NCBI RefSeq assembly: GCF_009649225.1
Contig: NZ_WJPP01000002.1
Coordinates: 62,001 to 126,000, forward strand
DNA: 64,000 nucleotides
Reading direction: 5' to 3'
Source: Spiribacter salilacus
Lineage (GTDB): Bacteria; Pseudomonadota; Gammaproteobacteria; Nitrococcales; Nitrococcaceae
This document shows positions 5,838 through 52,536 of this stretch, piece by piece. The notes beneath the pieces are model-generated. The model made no database searches and was not told where the DNA came from. It was given only the letters and a program-made list of their open reading frames with translations. Within the stretch, counting starts at the first letter, position 1; every line of letters starts with the position of its first letter. Both the position numbers and the translations under genes were made by a program.

Positions 5838-8210
5838 TTAGCTGTTCTGCAAACTAACAGCGGCAAGCTCATCGACATGCTCGATCCAATGAAACTGCAT
5901 TGCCTCTCGAGCGGCCTCGGGTATCTCTTCAAAGTCTTTGCGATTACGGGCTGGCAATAAAACCGTAGTAATACCTGCCCGACGCGCGGCCAAGACCTTT
6001 TCTTTAATACCCCCCACTGGAAGCACCAGTCCACGCAAGGTGATCTCTCCGGTCATCGCAACATCCTGTCTAATACACTGCCCCGTTAGCAGCGACACTA
6101 ACGCCGAGTACATCGCCACGCCAGCGCTTGGACCATCTTTTGGTATGGCTCCGGCGGGCACATGAATATGGATGTCGTCGCTTTGCAAGGCATCTAGGTC
6201 AACACCCAGCGCTTCTGCATTTGACTTAATCAAGCTGAGCGCCGTTTGTGCGCTTTCTTTCATGACATCACCTAACTGCCCCGTTAGGACAAGACGGCCA
6301 CTACCTCGCGAGCGTGATGCTTCAATGAATAGGATATCGCCACCCACCGGCGTCCAGGCCAGCCCGGTTGCAACACCGGGCACACTGGTGCGCATGGCCA
6401 CCTCGCTTTCAAACTGAGGTGCTCCCAAGATCTCCTGCAGATCTTCTACCTCAATTGATGCATTTTCGATACTGCCATCCGCAATCCGCACCGCTACATG
6501 TCGCGCCACTTTACCCAGCGTTCGCTCAAGCTGCCGACAACCGGCCTCCCGTGTATAAGAGGCAACAATCTCCGCAATAGCATCATCACTGACTTGGAAC
6601 TGCACCTCGGTTAATCCCGTATTTTCTCGCTGCCGTTTCAGCAAATAACGCCGGGCAATTTGGACTTTTTCTTCTTGCGTGTATCCCGGAATCTCAATCA
6701 TCTCCATGCGATCACGCAAGGGGCCCGGGATTTGATCGGGCACATTCGCCGTTGCAATAAAAAAGACCGCACCTAGATCAAACGGTAGCCCTAGGTAGTT
6801 ATCCTGGAAACTCCCATTTTGAGCCGGATCTAAGACCTCTAGCAGTGCTGCAGATGGATCACCATGCATACCCGCGCCAAGCTTATCCATTTCATCGAGC
6901 ATCAAAACAGGGTTACGCGATCCCGCTTTATGAATGCTCTGAATAATCTTTCCAGGCAATGCCCCTAGGTAGGTGCGCCGGTGGCCACGAATCTCGGCCT
7001 CATCATGCATGCCACCTAAACTGGCGCGCATAAAATCTCGACCCGTTGCCCGCGCAATGCTCTGTCCTAATGAGGTTTTGCCCACACCCGGTGGCCCCAC
7101 AAAACAAATAATCGGGCTTTTACCCGCTGGATTAAGTTTGCGCACCGCCAAGTGCTCTAGGATGCGTTGTTTAACCGGCTCAAGACCAAAATGATCCTCA
7201 TCAAGAATTTCTCTGGCCTTAGCAATATCAATATCTTCCTCTCGCTCGACAGACCATGGAAGCTCAAGCAACCAGTCGATATAAGTGCGCACCATCGAGT
7301 ACTCACCCGCGCCTTCCGGCATCCGTGCAAGTCGGCGCAACTCCTTACGTGCTTGCTTTTCCGCCTCCTCCGGCATTTTTGCTTCATCGATTCGGCTTTC
7401 TAATTCGCGCAGTTCCTCGGCCTTTTCATCGCCCTCACCCAGCTCTTCCTGAATTGAGCGCAACTGCTCGCGCAGTAGGGCCTCACGCTGACGTTCAGAC
7501 ATGGTTTCATGGGTGCGTTCGGTAATCTTTTGAGAGAGCTTTAGCACCTCAACGCGATAATCAATTAACGTGAGCACTCGCTCTAGTCGTGCCGAAATAT
7601 CTGTTAGCTCAAGCAACTCCTGTCTCTCCGCAGCAGCCAAATCGAGATAACCCGCTACCGCATCGGCCAGCACACCGGGCTCGCGAATCGCGGTTATTGC
7701 GCCTGCTAATTCCTGTGGCGCCTGTGGCAAGAGCTCCAGCGCCTCTAGCGCTTTGTCGCGCAGCGCCAACATACCTGCATCAATTTCAGGCCCGTCGGGC
7801 TGCACTTCAGGAATCCGCTCAACTCGCGCCACCAAAAAGGGGTATCCCTCGATTGGCTCGACAATGCGAAATCGCTCAGTGCCCTGCAAAACCAAGTGAT
7901 GATGCCCACTGCCTGCAACCAAGCGCATCACATTGGCAATGGTGCCAACCTGCTTAAGATCCGCTATCGAGGGCGTTTCATCATCGCTTTGCTCCTGCAG
8001 CACAATACCCATGGGTAGTTCCTGCTGAACCGCCTGACGCGCCGCCAAAATAGATTGCGGGCGCCCAAGTCCCACAGGCATCACCATCTGCGGAAACAAC
8101 ACTAAATTCCGAACCGGTAAGATAATAAGCGCATCATCGGGTAACCGCTGCAGCACCAAACTGCGCGATTCCTGATCTTCCATTTGCTCAAGCGTTTCTG
8201 TGTCAGTCAT
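5838..8210 (-). CDS. lon: ATP-dependent protease La (Lon)
   Basis: Cytoplasmic AAA+ serine protease of 790 residues (E. coli Lon 784). Visible are the N-terminal substrate domain (LPVRNLVLFPQMVMPV), coiled coil, Walker A GPPGVGKTS near residue 360, Walker B VLMLDEMDKLG, and the protease dyad: Ser in PKDGPSAGVAM and Lys in GGIKEKVLAA. The frame is open to an ATG at 8222, but the sequence GGAGGTG between 8222 and 8210 is an ideal ribosome site for the second ATG, so I place the start at 8210. A sigma-32-type promoter lies just upstream (8230-8258). Confidence 0.98.
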   Translation of the reverse strand: MTDTETLEQMEDQESRSLVLQRLPDDALIILPVRNLVLFPQMVMPVGLGRPQSILAARQAVQQELPMGIVLQEQSDDETPSIADLKQVGTIANVMRLVAGSGHHHLVLQGTERFRIVEPIEGYPFLVARVERIPEVQPDGPEIDAGMLALRDKALEALELLPQAPQELAGAITAIREPGVLADAVAGYLDLAAAERQELLELTDISARLERVLTLIDYRVEVLKLSQKITERTHETMSERQREALLREQLRSIQEELGEGDEKAEELRELESRIDEAKMPEEAEKQARKELRRLARMPEGAGEYSMVRTYIDWLLELPWSVEREEDIDIAKAREILDEDHFGLEPVKQRILEHLAVRKLNPAGKSPIICFVGPPGVGKTSLGQSIARATGRDFMRASLGGMHDEAEIRGHRRTYLGALPGKIIQSIHKAGSRNPVLMLDEMDKLGAGMHGDPSAALLEVLDPAQNGSFQDNYLGLPFDLGAVFFIATANVPDQIPGPLRDRMEMIEIPGYTQEEKVQIARRYLLKRQRENTGLTEVQFQVSDDAIAEIVASYTREAGCRQLERTLGKVARHVAVRIADGSIENASIEVEDLQEILGAPQFESEVAMRTSVPGVATGLAWTPVGGDILFIEASRSRGSGRLVLTGQLGDVMKESAQTALSLIKSNAEALGVDLDALQSDDIHIHVPAGAIPKDGPSAGVAMYSALVSLLTGQCIRQDVAMTGEITLRGLVLPVGGIKEKVLAARRAGITTVLLPARNRKDFEEIPEAAREAMQFHWIEHVDELAAVSLQNS

Positions 8211-8229
8211 TGCCACCTCCATGTTAAAG

Positions 8230-8258
8230 AGATGGAGGCGGCATGCCTGATTTTCAAG
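8230..8258 (-). promoter_or_regulatory. Predicted heat-shock (sigma-32) promoter of lon
   Basis: On the minus strand, CTTGAAA (8258-8252) is followed after exactly 14 bases by CTCCATCT (8237-8230). The sigma-32 consensus is CTTGAAA-N13-15-CCCCATNT, so the -35 is perfect and the -10 differs at one defined position. It sits 20 bases upstream of the chosen lon start, which leaves only a very short leader. Lon is a classical heat-shock gene, so context agrees. Confidence 0.8.
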
Positions 8259-8267
8259 AGGTCGGGC

Positions 8268-8570
8268 TTAAGAAAAGATATCCTCAACGGCGCTGGCATC
8301 AAGGCCACGCTCAAACCACAAAACCAGAGTCTCAGCGTCTGCCGCCTTTACCTGTGCCTCATAGTGTTCTTTCGCCTCTACGCCAAACCGCCGTTCAATC
8401 AACCGCAACAGCAGCAGGGCCTCACCCTCGCGGCGGCCTTGCTCGAGGCCGATCTCTCGGCCAATCTCTCGGCCAATCTCTCGGCCAATCTCTCGGCCCT
8501 GTTCGAGGCCTTGCGCCAAACCTTGCTCTTTCCAAGTTTCAGTCCATTCCTTAACGCGTTCTGACAACAT
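8268..8570 (-). CDS. Predicted internal small Rpn protein (RpnS-like antitoxin), same frame as rpn
   Basis: Inside rpn, Met245 is preceded by AAGGAGG (8585-8579), a perfect Shine-Dalgarno, with 8 bases to the ATG at 8570. Initiation there would give a 100-residue protein: MLSERVKEWTETWKEQGL, the GREI repeat helix, and the rest of the C-terminal domain. Rpn genes are known to produce a separately translated C-terminal antitoxin (RpnS) that blocks the full-length toxin, and the four-residue repeat helix forms its dimer interface. The internal start is a direct observation; its use and antitoxin role here are inference by homology. Codons for Gly-Gly-Val type residues do not force an SD at this place, so chance is unlikely but not excluded. 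Confidence 0.75.
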   Translation of the reverse strand: MLSERVKEWTETWKEQGLAQGLEQGREIGREIGREIGREIGLEQGRREGEALLLLRLIERRFGVEAKEHYEAQVKAADAETLVLWFERGLDASAVEDIFS

Positions 8571-9302
8571 TCCTTGTACCTCCTTCAGGTCACTAAGCTG
8601 GTCAAAGTTTACCCCTGGCACCCGGGCGGGCAGCAAGACCTGTTTTATCCAGACCGTAAAACTACGCCGCAATTCACGCTGGTCTGCAAGTGCCAACCAA
8701 TCAATGAGTTTTTCTAGAATACGCTCAATATCGGCAGGTTCACGACTTTGCTCTAGCGAAAATAATGCCTCTACCAAATTTTGCTGCGCTGATGAGGGTG
8801 TCCGGCCGGGCTGATTGGCATCAAGCAGAAGGTAACTCAATCTGGGTTGATAGGCCTCTAATCCACCCGGCACTTGCGCAATTAACCGAGCAACTTCCTG
8901 GGGCGCTTTCCAGGGTTTTGTCCCCTGATAAAGCACAATCGGCAATACCGCCGGCAGTAATCCACTGTCGGTGAGTTCATTGCGGTTGGCTAAATCTTCA
9001 TATAACAGACCTAGATAATTAAATATCCGCAGCGCCATAAAGCGCTCTGGTGTCGACTGAAACTCCAAAAGCAGATAGACATACATAAACGTGTCGTCGT
9101 CACACCAGCGCACCCGCCAAACCATATCGCTAACCCGCTCACGCAAGTCGCCCCGCACATAACTGCCATTCATGCGCTCCAACGTCTGAAGGTCCAGCTT
9201 TTCAACCCAAGGATCTTTAACATAACCCCGCAGTAGATCAGCCATCATCGCCGGATGGCTAAATAAACGTTTATAACCGTGATCATGCCCGTGGTGTGTC
9301 AT
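8268..9302 (-). CDS. rpn: Rpn-family nuclease, full-length form (RpnL)
   Basis: A 344-residue protein of the recombination-promoting nuclease / transposase_31 family (PD-(D/E)xK fold). It opens with HDHGYKRLFSHPAMMADLLRGYV and carries the catalytic pattern Asp59 (ERVSDMVWRVRW) and Glu80-x-Gln82 (LLLEFQS). The C-terminal third has four GREI repeats (about 268-283) in a long charged helix. Family members E. coli RpnA-E are DNA endonucleases and, in published work, toxins with anti-phage activity. The region upstream of the start at 9302 has no recognisable Shine-Dalgarno, in contrast to the strong internal site. It reads toward lon and stops 10 bases before the lon -35. It diverges from recC. 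Confidence 0.9.
   Translation of the reverse strand: MTHHGHDHGYKRLFSHPAMMADLLRGYVKDPWVEKLDLQTLERMNGSYVRGDLRERVSDMVWRVRWCDDDTFMYVYLLLEFQSTPERFMALRIFNYLGLLYEDLANRNELTDSGLLPAVLPIVLYQGTKPWKAPQEVARLIAQVPGGLEAYQPRLSYLLLDANQPGRTPSSAQQNLVEALFSLEQSREPADIERILEKLIDWLALADQRELRRSFTVWIKQVLLPARVPGVNFDQLSDLKEVQGMLSERVKEWTETWKEQGLAQGLEQGREIGREIGREIGREIGLEQGRREGEALLLLRLIERRFGVEAKEHYEAQVKAADAETLVLWFERGLDASAVEDIFS
8453..8500. repeat. Tandem 12-bp repeat inside rpn (four copies)
   Basis: On the plus strand TCTCTCGGCCAA occurs three times exactly (8453-8488), followed by a fourth copy TCTCTCGGCCCT that differs at its last two bases. The coding strand gives GREI x4, flanked by GLEQG on both sides. The unit is in frame, so slippage changes the helix length by four residues without frameshift. 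Confidence 0.97.
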
Positions 9303-45469: not shown

Positions 45470-45544
45470 GCTCCCATCGTCTAGCGGTTAGGACGCTGCC
45501 CTCTCAAGGCGGAAACCGGGGTTCAAGTCCCCGTGGGAGCACCA
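45470..45544 (+). tRNA. tRNA-Glu (anticodon CTC)
   Basis: A 75-nt cloverleaf. Acceptor GCTCCCA pairs with TGGGAGC, followed by discriminator A and an encoded CCA. The D arm is GTCTAGCGGTTAGGAC. The anticodon arm CTGCC-CTCTCAA-GGCGG puts CTC at positions 34-36 (Glu, codon GAG). The T arm is CCGGG-GTTCAAGT-CCCCG type. The 3' half doubles as the left attachment site of the integrated element, which restores an intact tRNA. Confidence 0.97.
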
Positions 45545-45546
45545 AT
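45501..45546. other. attL of the integrated element
   Basis: 46 bases from the anticodon loop (CTCTCAAGGCGG) through the CCA end and AAT are repeated without mismatch at 52389-52434. The repeat lies in the 3' half of tRNA-Glu, the classical target for tyrosine integrases. Confidence 0.95.
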
Positions 45547-45578
45547 AAAATCAACAACTTACGAAAAACGACTGACCA

Positions 45579-45613
45579 AGTTGTCTAAAAACTGTCTAAA
45601 ATACGTCCCTGAA
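45579..45613 (+). repeat. Left inner-end repeat (probable integrase arm site)
   Basis: AGTTGTCTAAAAACTGTC followed by TAAAATACGTCCCTGAA. The right inner end at 52259-52293 repeats this in the same orientation with few differences. A further copy of the core lies at 48806-48822 in reverse (AGTTGTCTAAAAACAGT). Such repeated sites flanking a tyrosine-integrase att core are typical arm-binding sites; function is inferred. Confidence 0.75.
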
Positions 45614-45992: not shown

Positions 45993-46706
45993 CTAGTCGA
46001 GACCGCTCAGCTTTAGCAAATTCGCCTCATGCTGCTTTTGCTCGGCTTCAAAAGCCTTTTTCTGCTCATCGTTGGGCGCGGCTTTACTTGCGAGGGCTAG
46101 CGCATGCTGGCCTACCTCGTGAAGGAAAGTATCGGCCTTTTCCAGACGCTCACGCTCGGCCACCACACTGGGGAACAATTGCTTAGCGGCGTAGGCCCTG
46201 AACGCGGGCAGGTCTTTATCCTGCAACCCTGACACCACCGCCGGGGCGGATAGAACCGCGGAAATCACTCGGCGGTTTCCGCTTGATATCGCTTCACGCA
46301 CATAGGCTGTCCGCTGGGCCGCGTCCATCTCTCGCAACGCTTGCCGGGTTTCAGGGCCGTGCGGGTCATCTTTGCCAAGCTCGTCGGTTAGCTTAGAGTC
46401 CAACGCAACGATGCGCTCGCTCAGCTTGCCGCGGGCCTCGGTAACGTGTTTTTGCGACTGCTCCGCTACCCGCTTGGCGTGGCGGTCAATTTCCTGCAAA
46501 TGCGCCGCGGCTGTGCTGTGGGGATTGCGGTTGCTCCGCATCGACAGCAGGCCCTCGAACGCCTCTGACACCCTTTTCTGTTTCCCCAGGGCGTAATTGA
46601 TGTCGGGGTCATCATCTCCGAATGACTCCGCCCAACTTTCAGGAACTTGTAGTGCGGCCGGTATCTCTTTGCTTAGGTCTGGGAGTGCAGGTTGTGCAGC
46701 TTTCAT
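45993..46706 (-). CDS. Coiled-coil protein of unknown function, last gene of the element operon
   Basis: 237 residues, hydrophilic and helical, rich in Ala, Glu, Lys and Gln, with no membrane segment. Segments HLQEIDRHAKRVAEQSQKHVTEARGK and the C-terminal KAFEAEQKQHEANLLKLSGLD look like coiled coils. I do not recognise a family. Its place directly after TerL, where phages have portal or head-assembly genes, makes a scaffold-like or capsid-redirecting role possible, but this is only inference. A ribosome site GAGGACAG precedes the ATG at 46706. Confidence 0.75.
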   Translation of the reverse strand: MKAAQPALPDLSKEIPAALQVPESWAESFGDDDPDINYALGKQKRVSEAFEGLLSMRSNRNPHSTAAAHLQEIDRHAKRVAEQSQKHVTEARGKLSERIVALDSKLTDELGKDDPHGPETRQALREMDAAQRTAYVREAISSGNRRVISAVLSAPAVVSGLQDKDLPAFRAYAAKQLFPSVVAERERLEKADTFLHEVGQHALALASKAAPNDEQKKAFEAEQKQHEANLLKLSGLD

Positions 46707-46812
46707 TTTCTGTCCTCACTGGGTGTTGATAGGTAAACGTGTAAGACTCGCCGGTTGCCTGTCCTCGGCTGTCGACGATGCAAAATCGGATGGTTCGGGT
46801 TTCTCGTCTCAT
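46639..46812 (-). CDS. 57-residue ORF coupled to terL
   Basis: Begins at an ATG that overlaps the terL TGA (ATGA) and reads MRRETRTIRFCIVDSRGQAT and on to a TGA at 46639. The last third overlaps the next gene in another frame. The coupled start and the otherwise empty 102-base gap support a real gene; the Thr/Arg-rich C-terminal end inside the neighbour argues for caution. Confidence 0.45.
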   Translation of the reverse strand: MRRETRTIRFCIVDSRGQATGESYTFTYQHPVRTENESCTTCTPRPKQRDTGRTTSS

Positions 46813-48245
46813 GCCACCCCCCTAATAACGGTGCGTGGGTATTGTTGAAACTCGGCTGTCACGGCATACCGGCTAGCGTCCGCTGCATGGTCTGGGCCGG
46901 TCGTATCAATATCTTCAGGCCGGCGTGGGTCTCTGGGCAGGTTTGGCACGGTGGCCCACCAATACGAGCACCGACGCGAAACGTAAAGGCCGGGCTTGTC
47001 GGGCTTGCCAGCATCCTGCAACAGCCGCGCCATCGTCTGCCAGCCGGCAATACGGCCGCCTTTGTGTGCTCTCTGAAACACCACGCCGTTTCTTTGGAAT
47101 TCCTGCGCTATTGAGCCAGCCTCACCGCCGGTGCGATTAAATATCGCGTCGTCTGCTACCCCTTGCGGTTTCGCTTGCCACTGTTTGCACATGTCCACGA
47201 TGGCCGCGGCTTGTTCTGGAACGGTGAGGCCGGTGCCTTGTGTCTGGTCATCTGGGTGCGCGGTGGTGATTTCATCGAGCAGAATGATCGAGTCTTTTGG
47301 GTACACCACACCATCGGGCGCGGCGTGCCCCGGTGATTTCGCAACCAAATACGTTACGCTCGGGGCGCTTACCCCAAAATCGTGGGCGAGGAAAATCCGC
47401 CAGTCTGTAACTAGCGACGGATCATGATGGTAAATGGATCGTTTGTTTAATCGATGGTTGATGCGGTTGGGCAGATAGGCCCACGGTTCGATCATGCTGC
47501 GGTTTGTATCGAGGACATGGGCGAAATACGCGCCCCTAATCACGCTCCAATCGCCATCCAGCCATGCGCGGGCTAACTCAGGGTCAGTCGCGCAGGATGC
47601 CTTTAGATTCGCCGCGTAACGGTCACGATCGATAAAATCATTATCTCGATAGGTCGAGGCGATGGTCACGAACTGCCCGCCGGTGGCGGCATCCGTAAAC
47701 GGAACCCACGATTGCCGCATTGCATAGCGCTTGGCCAGCCAATGGTGGCCACTACCGCCGGGGTTAGCCAAAATGATAAAACGCAACGGAATGCCGGTTG
47801 GTGCTCTTAGACTACTCCGCAAGCGATCAACCAACGCTGGACTGCTAAACTGCCCCGCTTCATCAACCGCGATATGTGAGAAACCCTTGCCCTGGTATTT
47901 TTGAAAATCCCGCTCGGATTCGAGTTGGTCGAGTTGAATGGTCGCGCCGTTTCCGAGCGTAAACTTGTGCGTGCGTCGGTCATGATTAAACCCTCGATGG
48001 CCGTATACGGCGCTCAGGAATGCGTGCAGGTCGGATTCAAGCTCTGACAGGCCCGGGAAGGAACGGCGTACTACTAGGCACTTAGCCGCTGCTTTCCATT
48101 TCTCACAATGGCGAAGAAATAAAACGAACAACAGCCATGTTTTGCCGCCACCGCGACCGCCTGCTAGGCACAAGTCGAAGGATTCCGGGACGGCCATCGC
48201 GTGACGCTGCCACTCGCTAAGATCGTCCGGACGCTGCTCAGCCAT
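46809..48245 (-). CDS. Phage terminase large subunit (TerL)
   Basis: 478 residues from the ATG at 48245. The motor domain has Walker A GGRGGGKTWLL (about 29-36), a conserved ESERDFQKYQGKGFSHIAVDEAGQF with the Walker B Asp-Glu near 128, and coupling motif ILANPGGSGHHW. The C-terminal RNase-H-like nuclease keeps its acidic residues: FLAHDFGVSAPSVTYL, ILLDEITTAHPDD and GPDHAADASRYAV. It packages DNA into proheads. The frame is open to 48332, but those residues overlap a better small ORF (48238-48345). The catalytic sites look intact. Confidence 0.92.
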   Translation of the reverse strand: MAEQRPDDLSEWQRHAMAVPESFDLCLAGGRGGGKTWLLFVLFLRHCEKWKAAAKCLVVRRSFPGLSELESDLHAFLSAVYGHRGFNHDRRTHKFTLGNGATIQLDQLESERDFQKYQGKGFSHIAVDEAGQFSSPALVDRLRSSLRAPTGIPLRFIILANPGGSGHHWLAKRYAMRQSWVPFTDAATGGQFVTIASTYRDNDFIDRDRYAANLKASCATDPELARAWLDGDWSVIRGAYFAHVLDTNRSMIEPWAYLPNRINHRLNKRSIYHHDPSLVTDWRIFLAHDFGVSAPSVTYLVAKSPGHAAPDGVVYPKDSIILLDEITTAHPDDQTQGTGLTVPEQAAAIVDMCKQWQAKPQGVADDAIFNRTGGEAGSIAQEFQRNGVVFQRAHKGGRIAGWQTMARLLQDAGKPDKPGLYVSRRCSYWWATVPNLPRDPRRPEDIDTTGPDHAADASRYAVTAEFQQYPRTVIRGVA

Positions 48246-48345
48246 CGTCGGATTGCTCCGCCGGCTTGCGGTCTCTTTTCCGTTGCTGGGCCGCCCACCA
48301 TTTGCGAAAGGCCTCGGAGTCGGGCCTGACATACTCTCTAGGCAT
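48238..48345 (-). CDS. 35-residue ORF between terS and terL
   Basis: MPREYVRPDSEAFRKWWAAQ and a charged tail, ending EQSDDG. Its ATG lies inside the last codons of terS (8-base overlap) and its stop overlaps the terL ATG (GATGGCTGA). This chain of overlaps, and a basic, Trp-containing sequence, suggest a real packaging accessory protein translated by coupling. Function unknown. Confidence 0.6.
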   Translation of the reverse strand: MPREYVRPDSEAFRKWWAAQQRKRDRKPAEQSDDG

Positions 48346-48739
48346 CCGTGCCAACCTTCGGCCGCTCACCTAGCGCACTAATGTATTTTTCCGCCGGCAT
48401 CGAGTCCGGCAAGTTGAACACCACCTGAACCGGCTCACCGGCCCCCTGCGAGCCTTTTTCGCTCAGTCCGTGCCTGACTGCCAGCAGGGTGGTTGCGGCC
48501 TTTGTATCGCCTTGTATGGCTCGATCGTAAAGGGCGGCTAAAAGCTGGTCGCGCTCCACGGCCAACGCGTCACGCCAAATAGATGCGCTGCCCGGGTCAT
48601 CGACAATCACCCGGCGGAACTGGGTCAGGGGCATGCCCAGCGCATCGGCGGCTTTGGACTCGGTCAGGGTTCCGCTTGCGGCCATTGCCTCAAGGTGGGC
48701 GCGTGCGCCGGGGGGCAACTTTACGAACGGTCTAGCCAT
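48338..48739 (-). CDS. Phage terminase small subunit (TerS)
   Basis: 133 residues with an N-terminal helix-turn-helix (GTLTESKAADALGMPLTQFRRVIVDDPGSASIWRDAL), a middle helix (RDQLLAALYDRAIQGDTKAATTLLAVRHGL) and a C-terminal tail with VQVVFNLPDSMP. This layout is that of small terminases that recognise the pac/cos site. Immediately upstream of terL. GAGGGATTAAG precedes the ATG. Confidence 0.85.
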   Translation of the reverse strand: MARPFVKLPPGARAHLEAMAASGTLTESKAADALGMPLTQFRRVIVDDPGSASIWRDALAVERDQLLAALYDRAIQGDTKAATTLLAVRHGLSEKGSQGAGEPVQVVFNLPDSMPAEKYISALGERPKVGTDA

Positions 48740-48932
48740 TCTTAATCCCTCTGTATCAGGGGCGGAATCAGGGCGCTAAACCCATCAACTCGCCTCGGTT
48801 TTTTGACTGTTTTTAGACAACTAATAATCATTATTATTTCAGAACAATAGGTTAGTGTCTACGTTTCCGCCTTGAAAAGGCGAATCAAAACGAAAAAAAA
48901 CAAAGCGGAATGCAGGTTTGAATGAAAAATCA
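48740..48932 (-). promoter_or_regulatory. AT-rich intergenic region upstream of the packaging genes
   Basis: 193 bases without a convincing ORF. It contains an inverted copy of the arm-type repeat (48806-48822), an AT-rich run (48822-48846), and a hairpin CGCCTT-GAA-AAGGCG (48873-48887) whose minus-strand copy includes TCAAGGCGGAAAC, a 13-base match to the att core. No terminator T-run follows the hairpin in the direction of transcription. A promoter for terS-terL and a recombinase or regulator site are likely here; exact boxes are not assigned. Confidence 0.5.
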
Positions 48933-49655
48933 TCACAACATTCGCCGCTTTTTCACTGGCTCGGTCTGCCATTGATCGCGCCAGCCTTCAGCATCTAGCC
49001 ATTTCAATGGCGTCATTGGCTGGCTATTGCTTTGTCGGGTATATCGCATCCACCGGTTTGCACCATCAACGATGGTTTTCAACTCAACACCGGAAGCCAC
49101 CAAGGCATCAATGCGGCGCTCACATTCTCTAACTTGTGCCCGCTTAACTCCTGCTTGCCAGAACTGAGGATGTTTATCACTTTGCGGTTGCTCGGATTGA
49201 TTAACCGATTCTTTATCCGATTCATTCATAGATTTGGGTGACATGGGTGTCACTGGTGGGGTGACACTGGCGTCACTGGTTGGTGACATGGGTGTCACTA
49301 GTGGGGTGACATCGGTGTCACTAGTGGGGTTTAGCCGGTAAACATTGGAACGCCCTTGGGTGCGCTCTACCTGAATGAAGCCAGCGCGTGATAATTGGTT
49401 GATGGCTCGAACTACGCTGCGCCGGTCTGCATTCGTGGATTGCGCCAAGGTATTTAGCGACGGCCAGCAGACGCCAGTTTTGGCATTAGCCATATTCGCC
49501 AGCGTGATGGCCACCGTTATTTCAGATCGCCTCAGGGGTGGGTCAGTTTTAGCCAGAGCCTGAAGCCACTCAAGTTTCTGAACCAATGACAAGGTGGTAT
49601 TCTGTTGGTGTACTGCATTGGCCTCGCTATTGGCGGGGCTTTTTTTTTGCCTCAT
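48933..49655 (-). CDS. Winged-helix replication initiator, lambda-O-like, containing iterons
   Basis: 240 residues. The N-terminal part (about 30-110) is a replication-type winged helix: RRSEITVAITLANMANAKTGVCWPSLNTLAQSTNADRRSVVRAINQLSRAGFIQVER. Residues about 112-139 are a low-complexity linker (TPLVTPMSPTSDASVTPPVT) encoded by four DNA palindromes. The C-terminal domain (FWQAGVKRAQVRECERRIDALVASGVE...) may bind a helicase or loader. The order of winged helix, iteron-encoded linker and C-terminal domain is that of lambda O. The ATG overlaps the previous stop by one base (TAATG). Confidence 0.8.
   Translation of the reverse strand: MRQKKSPANSEANAVHQQNTTLSLVQKLEWLQALAKTDPPLRRSEITVAITLANMANAKTGVCWPSLNTLAQSTNADRRSVVRAINQLSRAGFIQVERTQGRSNVYRLNPTSDTDVTPLVTPMSPTSDASVTPPVTPMSPKSMNESDKESVNQSEQPQSDKHPQFWQAGVKRAQVRECERRIDALVASGVELKTIVDGANRWMRYTRQSNSQPMTPLKWLDAEGWRDQWQTEPVKKRRML
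49197..49321. other. Predicted replication origin: four palindromic iterons plus AT-rich stretch
   Basis: Four copies of GTGACA-N4-TGTCAC (the second has CGTCAC) start at 49238, 49261, 49283 and 49306, spaced 23, 22 and 23 bases. To their left (49197-49236) lies an AT-rich stretch. Iterons next to an AT-rich unwinding region inside the initiator gene are the lambda origin design. Function is inferred from this architecture. Confidence 0.75.
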
Positions 49656-50242
49656 TACGCGCCCCCCGTTTTGTAAACCAACGAAAAGCCGGGCAGATAC
49701 TTATCGAGCATCCTCTGAACCGCCTCGGGTGTTGGCTCCACCTGCACCTTGCGCTTGCGGAACCCGGCTTCAATAGCGGCGGCGTTTGGTGACATCGTTC
49801 CGTCAATAACTTCCTTCGCAAGATCGGGGCGGTCGCGCTTGAGCCGGGCAACGGTGTGGCCGACGCTAGTGCCATATGAGTTTGGAAACCGGATATTATC
49901 CGCTTTCCTCTCATCAGCCGGTGTGTACTGATTCGCTCCGGTTGGATTTCCGCGATTTCCAGCCTGCTGCATCTCCCCCTTGATCAACCGCACGGCTTCT
50001 TCATCGTCCTCGCAATAGCGAATCAGGCGGGGCATGGTTAATTCCAAGCCCTGCCACATCCGATGCTCAACGAATGACTGAAAAGACGTAAAAGGCTGGC
50101 CGTTTTTGTCCGTGCGATCGGCCCATAAACGGCGCTCGATTATCGTCGTGATAGCCTGCGGGAAAGTGCTAAACAGATTTCGCGCATCATGGTGGGCAAC
50201 CCGTTGAGCCATTGTGACCACGTTTTGATATTTGTCAGTCAT
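49655..50242 (-). CDS. Uncharacterised element protein, possible DNA-binding
   Basis: 195 residues, no name assigned. The segment GNRGNPTGANQYTPADERKADNIRFPNSYGTSVGHTVARLKRDRPDLAKEVIDGTMSPNAAAIEAGFRKRK splits naturally: a Gly/Asn-rich linker, then a helix-turn-helix-like region (GTSVGHTVARLKRDRP...SPNAAAIEAGF) seen in hypothetical phage and plasmid proteins. The coding strand overlaps the alpA-like gene by 4 bases and the initiator gene by one. A regulatory or replication role fits the place. Confidence 0.7.
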   Translation of the reverse strand: MTDKYQNVVTMAQRVAHHDARNLFSTFPQAITTIIERRLWADRTDKNGQPFTSFQSFVEHRMWQGLELTMPRLIRYCEDDEEAVRLIKGEMQQAGNRGNPTGANQYTPADERKADNIRFPNSYGTSVGHTVARLKRDRPDLAKEVIDGTMSPNAAAIEAGFRKRKVQVEPTPEAVQRMLDKYLPGFSLVYKTGGA

Positions 50243-50439
50243 ACGGCCTCCTGCTCAATCATCTCTGAATGCAGGTCAATCCATGCCTCTGCATCTTTGC
50301 GACGTATCAGGGTGCGCCGGCCAACTTTGATTGCAGGCAGCCGTTTGGCTTTGATCTCCCCGTATAGGGTGGTGCGGCCGATTCCGAGAATCCGGGCGGC
50401 ATCGTTTACGCTGTATGCGATAACTTCGGCTTGGTTCAT
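50239..50439 (-). CDS. AlpA/excisionase-family helix-turn-helix protein
   Basis: 66 residues: SVNDAARILGIGRTTLYGEIKAKRLPAIKVGRRTLIRRKDAEAWID is the MerR-like excisionase fold (HTH_17). Such proteins act as recombination directionality factors or as activators of integrase genes (AlpA in P4-like and PICI elements). A GAGGAAACGAC ribosome site precedes the ATG. It starts the early segment that continues through the initiator gene. Confidence 0.88.
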   Translation of the reverse strand: MNQAEVIAYSVNDAARILGIGRTTLYGEIKAKRLPAIKVGRRTLIRRKDAEAWIDLHSEMIEQEAV

Positions 50440-50493: not shown

Positions 50494-50529
50494 GGGGTCA
50501 TTGGCTAGCAATGAACCCCTTTTATTTTG
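50494..50529 (+). terminator. Hairpin with T-run on the plus strand, between two leftward genes
   Basis: GGGGTCATTG and CAATGAACCCC (one bulged A) form a 10-bp stem around GCTAG, followed on the plus strand by TTTTATTTTG. This is a good rho-independent terminator for rightward transcription, although no rightward gene is annotated upstream. On the minus strand the hairpin follows the stop of the 148-residue gene by 2 bases but without a T-run. Confidence 0.6.
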
Positions 50530-50968
50530 TTCGAGGGTTTACCGTGTGACGCTTAAGAGTTGACTCGCTGGGGTAGCCGTCCTGTTCTGCGACTCGCTTT
50601 CTCAATTCTTTAATACCTAATTTCGGGTTTTTCCGGTGCTCAGCATCAACGGCCGCTTGAAGCTCAGCTTTGCGGTGGCTCCAATACGCTTTTGCTTTTC
50701 CGCCAGCGCTCGCACCTTGTAACTGGCGCTCGCCTCGAATGGTGTCGGGGTCAGTATTCCACCCCTTGAGAAGTCGCAAACTATCGAGCTTCGCTAATAT
50801 CAAAATCGCTTTGCTCGACGCGGGCTTGGACGCTAACAACCGCTCGACCGTCTCTAGGTGGCCCTGAATCTCAGGATGCGGAGTATCGCCCCAATACTCT
50901 TTATGGGCTTCGAGCCGCGCTCTAGGGGTGCGGCTGGTTAGCAGGGTTTTAATATCCGCATTGTTCAT
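50522..50968 (-). CDS. Uncharacterised protein coupled to the integrase
   Basis: 148 residues, charged and helical: RARLEAHKEYWGDTPHPEIQGHLETVERLLASKPASSKAILILAKLDSLRLLKGW, then GGKAKAYWSHRKAELQAAVDAEHRKNPKLGIKELRKRVAEQ and a possible C-terminal helix-turn-helix (DGYPSESTLKRHTV). I do not know a family. Its ATG overlaps the integrase stop (ATGA), so it is made together with the integrase and may affect recombination or regulation. Confidence 0.7.
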   Translation of the reverse strand: MNNADIKTLLTSRTPRARLEAHKEYWGDTPHPEIQGHLETVERLLASKPASSKAILILAKLDSLRLLKGWNTDPDTIRGERQLQGASAGGKAKAYWSHRKAELQAAVDAEHRKNPKLGIKELRKRVAEQDGYPSESTLKRHTVNPRTK

Positions 50969-52242
50969 CTTATCGCCACCACTTTATCATCGGCATCAAT
51001 GCCCCAAGTTGGCCCCAACTGGCGTACGGCATCTCGCACATAACTATCCGCTAAATGGCCATAATGTTTCTCGACCATTCGCGTATCGGAATGCCCAAGG
51101 TTTTGCGCCACTACCAGCAAGGGGACACCATTCATGACCGCGTGGCTGGCATAGGTATGGCGCAGACCATGAAAGGTAATATCAACGCCAGCAATCTTGG
51201 CGGCCCTTTTCATGGGCCTTAGCTGCTGTGATTTTTTCCACCTCTGGGTTTCAGGGTGCTCAAACATCGGCTCACGCGGGTTGCGGCCGGCGGTGTGGCG
51301 TTTGAAAAACTCAATGCCTTCATTGTTCAAGTAGACCGGATGCGGTTTTGAGCCTTTTGAATTGCCGGACATAACCAGCCCGCGATCTAAATTGAAGTCA
51401 CCAACATTCATTGCGCCCAAGTCGCCATATCGAGCGCCCGTATAGATAGCGCCCTGCACTAACTCACGAAAACCCGGCTCGCAGGCGTTTACCAGCCGCC
51501 TAACCTCTTCGCCGTTCAAATAAGCGACTCTGGCTTTTGAGACAACTGAAAACGGCTTTACTCGCTTTCCGGCCCATGCGGAATTGGTCTGCACCTTGCC
51601 AGCGAGAAACGCCTCATTCAGACCGGCTTTTAGAACGCTCAAAACTCGATTAGCCGAATCGCGCCGCCGGCGCTGATACTCTTTTTCGTCCTCGGGCTTG
51701 TCGAAAGACGGCTTTGGCTTTGGTTGCCCAAGCTGGTTAAAACCGGGGTGCTCAGCCATGTTCAAAAGCCACTCTCGCAACCGCTCCGAGCTTAAATTGC
51801 TTAATTTGATGTTACCCAGCGCGGGCGTGATATAAAGCTCTGTGCGGCGTCTGCTATCGCCTGACGAACGGCCCTCATTGTCTAGCCGCCGGTGGTAATC
51901 GTCCATTGCATCAGCGACGGTATAGGGGCCGACATGCTTACCGCTGGCGGTTGCCGCAAGGGATGTTGAAAGGGTGCGGGCTTGCGCTTGGGCTTGCGAC
52001 CAACTGAACACCCGAATGCCATCAGCATCTGACATATCATCGGCGATGCCGATATTTTTCAATGCATAGCGCTGCGTCTGCGGGTCATAAAACCTCGCAA
52101 GCCATTTGCCTCCTCTCCTCCCTTTGCGGTAGCCAACATGCAACCCGCTATGGATCGCCCGCCACCGGATTTTGAGGTCAGCCGGAATCGACGACCGCGC
52201 CGCTCGACTATCTACCTTAGCGTCTCTAACTGTTCTGGCCAT
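50965..52242 (-). CDS. int: Tyrosine recombinase / integrase of the tRNA-Glu element
   Basis: 425 residues from the ATG at 52242, which has a perfect GGAGG 8 bases upstream; the frame extends to 52296 without support. The N-terminal arm-binding part includes LKIRWRAIHSGLHVGYRKGRRGGKWLARFY, then a core-binding SAM-like domain and the catalytic domain. Catalytic residues: Arg271 (YTGARYGDL), His358 and Arg361 (HGLRHTYAS), His384 (LGHSDTR) and Tyr394 (KHYGHL). All are present, so the enzyme looks functional. Its promoter overlaps repeated sites that the integrase or AlpA may bind. Confidence 0.96.
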   Translation of the reverse strand: MARTVRDAKVDSRAARSSIPADLKIRWRAIHSGLHVGYRKGRRGGKWLARFYDPQTQRYALKNIGIADDMSDADGIRVFSWSQAQAQARTLSTSLAATASGKHVGPYTVADAMDDYHRRLDNEGRSSGDSRRRTELYITPALGNIKLSNLSSERLREWLLNMAEHPGFNQLGQPKPKPSFDKPEDEKEYQRRRRDSANRVLSVLKAGLNEAFLAGKVQTNSAWAGKRVKPFSVVSKARVAYLNGEEVRRLVNACEPGFRELVQGAIYTGARYGDLGAMNVGDFNLDRGLVMSGNSKGSKPHPVYLNNEGIEFFKRHTAGRNPREPMFEHPETQRWKKSQQLRPMKRAAKIAGVDITFHGLRHTYASHAVMNGVPLLVVAQNLGHSDTRMVEKHYGHLADSYVRDAVRQLGPTWGIDADDKVVAIR

Positions 52243-52258
52243 GATGCGCGCCTCCAAA

Positions 52259-52293
52259 AGTTGTCTAAAAACTGTCGAGAATACGTCGCTGAA
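52259..52293 (+). repeat. Right inner-end repeat (probable integrase arm site)
   Basis: AGTTGTCTAAAAACTGTC then GAGAATACGTCGCTGAA repeats the left inner end (45579-45613) in direct orientation. It lies in the integrase leader, between the promoter and the start codon, so binding there could repress int. Confidence 0.75.
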
Positions 52294-52378
52294 CATTGAC
52301 GAACAGTATAGAACAAGGCGGAAACCGCATCAAGAAAAACAAATACTTAGGTGAACATTAGTGAACAGTAAAACCCCC
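52290..52378. repeat. Pair of 17-bp operator-like repeats around the int promoter
   Basis: TGAACATTGACGAACAG (52290-52306) and TGAACATTAGTGAACAG (52362-52378) match at 14 of 17 bases. Each holds two GAACA half-sites. One overlaps the -10/start region of the int promoter, the other lies about 30 bases upstream of its -35. This looks like a regulator site pair; the binding protein is unknown. Confidence 0.65.
52305..52333 (-). promoter_or_regulatory. Promoter of the integrase operon
   Basis: On the minus strand TTGATG (52333-52328), 17 bases, TATACT (52310-52305). Both hexamers are close to the sigma-70 consensus with ideal spacing. Transcription would start near 52298, 56 bases before the int ATG. 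Confidence 0.75.
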
Positions 52379-52388
52379 CAATAGACCT

Positions 52389-52434
52389 CTCTCAAGGCGG
52401 AAACCGGGGTTCAAGTCCCCGTGGGAGCACCAAT
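52389..52434. other. attR of the integrated element
   Basis: An exact 46-base copy of attL containing only the 3' half of tRNA-Glu (anticodon loop to CCA). The 5' half is missing, so it is not a second tRNA gene. Confidence 0.95.
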
Positions 52435-52490
52435 GAAATCAAAAGCTTACGAAATATAACTGGCCAGCTTGTCTAACAATTGTCTAAAAC
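52435..52490 (+). repeat. Diverged copy of the element's left flank, lying outside attR
   Basis: The 55 bases after attR align without gaps to the 55 bases after attL (45547-45601); I count 44 identities. It includes CTTGTCTAACAATTGTCTAAAA, a degenerate double arm-type site. After an ordinary integration this side should be host DNA, so this is best explained as the remnant of an older related element. Confidence 0.75.
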
Positions 52491-52536
52491 TTCACAACAG
52501 ATGCGGCTGAATCATACTCGACCAAGTCATTCTGAC

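Follow-up and report, generated by a model that had tools for sequence, protein, structure and literature searches.

The window analysed here is a stretch of 64,000 nucleotides of the Spiribacter salilacus genome (contig NZ_WJPP01000002.1, positions 62,001 to 126,000), and all coordinates below are positions within it unless a contig is named. It contains an island of 6,888 bp between two 46-bp perfect direct repeats of the 3' end of a tRNA-Glu gene (tRNA at 45470–45544), attL at 45501–45546 and attR at 52389–52434, both on the plus strand. The island genes described here are read from the minus strand, and all are open. In gene order, they are a tyrosine integrase (int, 50965–52296, start codon uncertain; PF00589, E 2e-22), a 148-aa protein whose gene overlaps the integrase stop by ATGA (50522–50968), in the position of iolg in PICMIs (PMC10803314), an AlpA-like excisionase or regulator (50239–50439; HTH_17, E 9e-14; phrog_1840 excisionase), a 195-aa protein of the early operon without a Pfam or PHROG match (49655–50242), an O-like replication initiator of 240 aa (rep, 48933–49655), the small terminase subunit TerS (48338–48739; 67% identity to the gene of viral contig L232 and a weak phrog_4044 match), the large terminase subunit TerL (46809–48332; Terminase_3 and Terminase_6N, 63% identity to contig L230), and a 237-aa protein, ORF237, the third member of the terminase cassette (45993–46706; 28% identity over 165 aa with L232). 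The 195-aa protein has no relatives and is present only in this genome among the 274 searched. A helicase, loader or primase could not be recognised among the island's genes, which leaves these tasks to host or helper factors. Capsid, protease, portal and tail genes are likewise absent from the island's ORF list and from its Pfam and PHROG matches.

One genome of the genus carries the island; its initiator and terminase have no match in the others, though the tRNA region is kept. An empty site is seen in genomes G001 and G002, where 17–19 bp separate the tRNA from the gene that in the window lies beyond the island. In two relatives (L534 and L535), 5.6–7.7 kb of unrelated genes, including a two-component system, lie between the same tRNA-Glu and downstream gene. 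The chromosomal DNA immediately beyond attR (52435–52500) holds a decayed version of the inner left end of the island at 45547–45610 (AAATCAAaaGCTTACGAAA..TTGTCTAA), which probably stems from the earlier insertion of a related element. The window has exactly three copies of an 18-bp motif, AGTTGTCTAAAAACnGTC: one directly inward of attL (45579–45596, plus strand), one in the terS promoter region (48805–48822, minus strand) and one close to attR, within the opening codons of int (52259–52276, plus strand). This motif may be a shared site for the integrase, AlpA or another regulator that couples excision with terminase expression.

The island has relatives in three contigs, L230–L232, drawn from a viral collection. 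TerL is common to all three, and the 237-aa gene to L230 and L232. The earlier note had called the element a 6.9-kb satellite, and this is supported by the empty site and the TerS-TerL-ORF237 cassette shared with circular satellite contigs; by this cassette the island belongs to the terminase-carrying satellite family of L230–L232. The replication slot of these contigs holds three different primase/helicases, and none of the three contains the GTGAC palindromes described below, which fits replication modules being swapped beside a constant packaging cassette. A conserved protein of 233–237 aa follows TerL in the capsid-less satellites (window 45993–46706; the ends of the L230 contig; L232 752–1453) and could act in packaging or capsid redirection. 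In L231, TerS-TerL is followed at 7454–9118 by two further genes, one possibly for a scaffold and one for a major capsid protein (phrog_247, E 7e-94), so the cassette occurs both with and without its own capsid gene.

The lack of capsid, portal and tail genes and the restriction to one genome of the genus are also what might be expected of a decayed prophage remnant whose origin is no longer used. However, every island gene is open, both att sites are perfect, and circular closure is seen in viral contigs that match the island in cassette and size (L230 through a perfect terminal repeat of 123 bp, L232 through a near-terminal repeat of about 102 bp). We therefore regard decay as unlikely.

Satellites with some of these features are known. 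The cf-PICIs carry TerS and TerL together with capsid, protease and portal genes; the island resembles them in having both terminase subunits and differs in having no capsid, protease or portal gene, a major capsid gene being found instead in its relative L231. VEIMEs are satellites known from virions; in the case of the island, it is the relatives L230–L232 that occur in a viral collection. The early gene order of the island (int, ATGA-overlapping gene, alpA, small gene, replication gene) is that of PICMIs, which carry a primase and for which no terminase is mentioned (PMC10803314). Unlike a PICMI, the island has an O-like initiator in place of the primase, and TerS-TerL in addition, so the combination of int, alpA and primase is not found on it.

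The initiator (48933–49655, minus strand) consists of a winged helix, a linker and C-terminal helices. It matches HTH_36 in Pfam (residues 44–94, E 1.2e-11) and phrog_270, 'replication initiation protein', over residues 48–235 (E 6e-20), a stretch that spans both the winged helix and the C-terminal part. The Pfam search gave no match to PF04492 (Phage_rep_O). The winged-helix DNA-binding domain (residues 24–108; 49332–49586, minus strand) is supported by the Pfam match and by an AlphaFold2 (AF2) model in which its blocks mostly have pLDDT >90. Within it, the predicted helix 78–91 contains R83 (codon 49407–49409, minus strand; column 43 of the winged-helix model), a residue of the recognition helix whose identity covaries with the half-site of the palindromes. 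The C-terminal helical domain (48993–49142, minus strand; AF2 helices 172–187, 192–208 and 216–221) is the presumed contact to a helicase or loader. Single-protein scans found no close homologues of the initiator in the sampled genomes. No solved structure of this initiator class was found either, the structure matches being to generic winged helices.

The linker between these domains is a repetitive peptide (DVTPLVTPMSP / ASVTPPVTPMSP), and its DNA holds four palindromes with the exact common form GTGAC-N6-GTCAC. The earlier note had described four copies of GTGACA-N4-TGTCAC with 22–23 base spacing in the coding linker of a winged-helix protein. Four sites are indeed present, in codons 112–140 directly behind the HTH_36 domain, and their start-to-start steps are 23, 22 and 23 bp; three of the four are perfect copies, while the palindrome at 49261–49276, GTGACA-CTGG-CGTCAC, has one mismatch. 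The array is 84 bp long and lies 330–420 bp into the gene. On the minus strand and in gene order, iteron 1 is at 49306–49321 (GTGACACCGATGTCAC, codon phase 1), iteron 2 at 49283–49298 (GTGACACCCATGTCAC, phase 0), iteron 3 at 49261–49276 (GTGACGCCAGTGTCAC, phase 1) and iteron 4 at 49238–49253 (GTGACACCCATGTCAC, phase 0). Because the steps are 22 and 23 bp, the reading frame shifts between copies, and the same DNA word is translated alternately as S-D...D-V-T and V-T-P...M-S-P. The exact form occurs six times in the 2.24 Mb of the genome, with four of these in the 84-bp array.

Could such an array arise with no function at the DNA level, as a by-product of a repetitive Thr/Pro/Ser/Val linker and tandem duplication? 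The linker peptide is repetitive, and copies 1+2 and 3+4 resemble a single 45-bp tandem duplication, which they probably are, so the number of independent sites may be two rather than four. That 45-bp duplication does not, however, account for the half-step of 22/23 bp, which is no multiple of three, and the palindromes alternate between two frames in which they encode different peptides (SD..DVT and VTP..MSP). When the gene was recoded synonymously with host codon usage, four sites were reached in none of 20,000 versions (maximum three), and within-gene synonymous shuffles likewise gave none in 20,000 (maximum two). The loss of palindromes in synonymous shuffles recurs across the family, and arrays of a related word, GTGCA, occupy all three frames. 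At the family level these frame and shuffle tests refute the by-product explanation, and for the island gene it is scarcely credible.

Adjoining the array, behind the last iteron in gene direction, is a stretch of 64% AT (49193–49237, minus strand) that ranks in the top 2.1% of the island's 45-bp windows and is presumed to be the DNA unwinding element; this is the AT-rich neighbour that had been noticed beside the palindromes. A rise in AT at this place is seen across 78 homologues. A second AT-rich region, the intergenic 48740–48932 ahead of terS (minus strand), was considered as an origin. It has none of these palindromes and contains a promoter-like site, so it is more likely a promoter; one copy of the 18-bp motif also lies there.

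We next consider how the array behaves across a wider set of genes. Candidates were collected by a DNA-only scan for two GTGAC palindromes 4–10 bases apart, in which no protein information was used. Such pairs were found at 119 viral contigs or loci, in about 90 of them inside a winged-helix initiator ORF, and at 104 loci of the genome collection, 32 of them inside a winged-helix ORF. Of 123 ORFs over the sites, 95 match HTH_36, 97 match PHROG_270 and 3 match PF04492. The first site lies a median of 16 residues behind the winged helix, and the spacing peaks at 22–24 bp, though the pattern permitted 20–26. In the 40 bp behind the last site the AT content is 0.56–0.58, compared with a gene mean of 0.44 and a flat profile before the first site. 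Among 81 non-redundant genes, 138 sites are in phase 1, 94 in phase 0 and none in phase 2, where an in-frame TGA stop would result. Both available phases are used in 62 of the 81 genes, which indicates that the constraint acts on the DNA. Each gene has 2.86 sites, compared with 0.15 in synonymous shuffles. Conservation of the palindromes beyond the need for amino-acid identity, a check proposed in the earlier note, is found across phyla and independently of the reading frame. Separately, pairs of the form GTGACTTTAAAGTCAC lie on more than 20 contigs of a Bacteroidaceae metagenome assembly (JAFSWM01; L129, L137, L139 and others) outside winged-helix genes; these are a different, genome-wide repeated element.

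Homologues were also collected by protein, as PHROG_270 matches in the class, a winged-helix profile scan and named phages, giving 70 non-redundant genes; a winged-helix profile from 20 diverse sequences was too variable for scanning. Because a strict 6+6 palindrome test left most of the other iteron types undetected, a frame-independent repeat test took its place. It counts, against synonymous shuffles, identical 9-mers that recur within 150 bp either inverted or in another frame, repeats that a repetitive peptide alone cannot yield. Lambda O, as the positive control, was recovered with 17 repeats against 0.93 expected. The 70 genes contain 1,192 repeats compared with 97.5 expected. The repeats are significant in 40 genes, and their centre is some 70 bp past the winged helix; control ORFs from like loci contain 569 compared with 276 expected and are significant in 19 of 195. 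At least two GTGAC palindromes (gap of 5–7 allowed) are present in 4 of the 70, the island gene included, and most genes use other words. The in-gene array is therefore the common design, of which GTGAC is one class. About 30 of the 70 genes have no significant repeats, so either the rule is not universal or the test is blind to degenerate arrays. Homologues with the same linker and no palindromic DNA, which had been named beforehand as evidence against an origin in the gene, did not turn up: VTP-type linkers are accompanied by palindromes, and distant homologues have other repeated words in the same place. One distant homologue (L006, gene on the minus strand) has a different large palindrome array there, AAAAGGCGGGTG..CCCGCCTTTT. 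A motif search of the AT-rich stretches gave a weak excess of AACC-N7-AACC (13 genes compared with 2.8) and nothing else. The initiator homologues of AP22 and PseuP_224 adjoin DnaB, which fits a role in helicase recruitment.

The palindrome word can be related to a single protein residue. At column 43 of the winged-helix model (R83 in the island), 83 of the 84 GTGAC genes have Arg, and the residue varies among 66 other genes. In a set of 88 protein-collected genes, 11 of 23 with Arg have at least three GTGAC halves, compared with 0 of 65 others (p 4e-8), and of all the 5-mers and residues that were tested, this pairing is the strongest. In the same set, Asn at this position accompanies GTGCA in 20 of 31. 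A prediction for GTGCA was set beforehand and followed by a scan for GTGCA-N5-TGCAC pairs. Among the matches listed, 93 of 120 loci have the pair in winged-helix genes, Arg occupies the R83 position in 1 of 69 non-redundant genes as predicted, and the arrays use all three codon phases, as expected because GTGCA makes no phase-2 stop. With the GTGCA genes among the matches listed, column 43 carries 0.84 bits of information on class and the next column 0.18. Nearest-neighbour pairs that differ at the R83 position behave as predicted in 11 cases, with 1 against and 2 ties. For the rule as a whole, relatedness is only partly controlled, with four close cross-class pairs at ≥50% identity. The GTGAC class is spread over many phyla. 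A single origin for it on the winged-helix tree, which has few columns and many open forks, is unsupported (9–13 changes). Taken at sequence level, one recognition-helix residue predicts the repeat word, so that each gene allows the protein and its target to be read side by side.

There are two other uses to which the palindromes might be put. As operator sites, they would let the winged-helix protein block transcription within its own gene. Winged-helix folds are usual in repressors, in-gene sites can act as roadblocks, and the closest solved folds to the initiator are regulators of the MarR/ArsR type. Against autoregulation stand the position of the sites, 330–420 bp into the gene, behind the DNA-binding domain and beside an AT-rich stretch as in lambda, as well as the PHROG annotation as a replication initiation protein and the homologues that adjoin DnaB. 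We consider this improbable as an alternative, and operator function may rather be an added role. The palindromes could also be packaging (pac) or partition sites for another protein, for example TerS or a centromere binder, given that the island encodes its own TerS and that partition sites also hold palindrome arrays. Yet TerS is 67% identical in L232 while L230–L232 have no such palindromes, and across phyla and unrelated phages it is the winged-helix gene that the palindromes accompany, changing together with its recognition helix, which makes packaging or partition sites very improbable.

An origin inside the initiator gene, as had been proposed for this locus, is supported by the frame-independent conservation of the repeats, their constant position, the lambda-like AT side and the covariation of residue and word, all read from sequence. 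In-gene origins within initiator genes are textbook knowledge for lambda. The annotated lambda iterons start at codons 117–139 in phases 0, 2, 2 and 1, with 78% AT behind the fourth. Like lambda O, the island initiator gene holds four palindromic iterons behind the DNA-binding domain (starting at codons 112–135), in steps of 20–24 bp and several codon phases, with an AT-rich stretch on the 3' side of the last. The likeness to lambda drawn in the earlier note thus holds for the iterons in the gene, the AT-rich 3' side and the frame-independent repeats, lambda itself being recovered by the same repeat test. In O proteins of Stx phages, the number of iterons is 4–6 (PMC7466680). Unlike in lambda, there is a different repeat word and no P-like loader gene beside the initiator, and no sequence homology to lambda O was found, the winged-helix profile missing lambda O and the island initiator missing PF04492. 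The PHROG_270/HTH_36 phage initiators (Acinetobacter AP22 gp76, Pseudomonas PseuP_224, SfV orf39) have the same domain order, and many have an in-gene array behind the winged helix; most of them use other half-sites, such as GTGCA with Asn, unlike the island with its GTGAC, Arg and satellite carrier. In PICIs, the origin is located 3' of rep and has one iteron set on either side of an AT-rich region (PMC6092414). The island shares with PICIs a satellite's own initiator and iterons adjoining an AT-rich region, but its iterons are within the gene and on one side of that region only, so it does not have a PICI-type origin.

Computation gives a frame-independent constraint on the DNA, the position of the array, the AT asymmetry, the covariation, the island borders, the empty site and the packaging cassette. 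Together these make it very probable that the island's replication start site is contained in the gene of its own recognition protein, and we hold with considerable confidence that the array is the iteron part of a lambda-O-like origin in the initiator linker, operating within a pathway that runs from excision to packaging. In such a pathway, AlpA and the integrase would drive excision of the island, each palindrome would be bound by an initiator dimer through the winged helix, and R83 in the recognition helix would read the GTGAC half-site; for the binding, the residue-to-site covariation is indirect support. The array would wrap into a complex resembling the lambda O-some, the AT-rich 49193–49237 would melt, and the C-terminal helical domain would recruit a host or helper DnaB-type helicase, directly or via a loader. 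The resulting copies or concatemers would be cut by the island's TerS-TerL and packaged into helper capsids. For melting, helicase loading, autonomous replication and packaging, we reason from lambda and from gene content; firing of the origin is likewise presumed.

A search of the open-access literature found no paper on this HTH_36 iteron class, which is no proof that none exists. As far as the open-access literature shows, a satellite with an in-gene origin, a GTGAC class over many phyla and a one-residue rule appear to be new here. The lambda-type design of an origin within its initiator gene would extend to a phage satellite of minimal size and to a class of winged-helix initiators that occurs in many phyla. 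Since protein and target lie in one gene, this family provides hundreds of matched protein–DNA pairs, enough for a recognition rule that held when a prediction from it was put to the test. We think it reasonably likely that the O-like initiators found in phages and satellites amount to a DNA recognition code that documents itself, with a winged helix and its target in each gene and the residue at the R83 position switching between GTGAC (Arg) and GTGCA (mostly Asn, also Tyr, Ser, Asp and Lys). If true, sequence alone would reveal the specificity of replication in hundreds of uncultured phages and satellites, and the recognition rule would make origin prediction, satellite–helper replication compatibility and winged-helix recognition directly testable.
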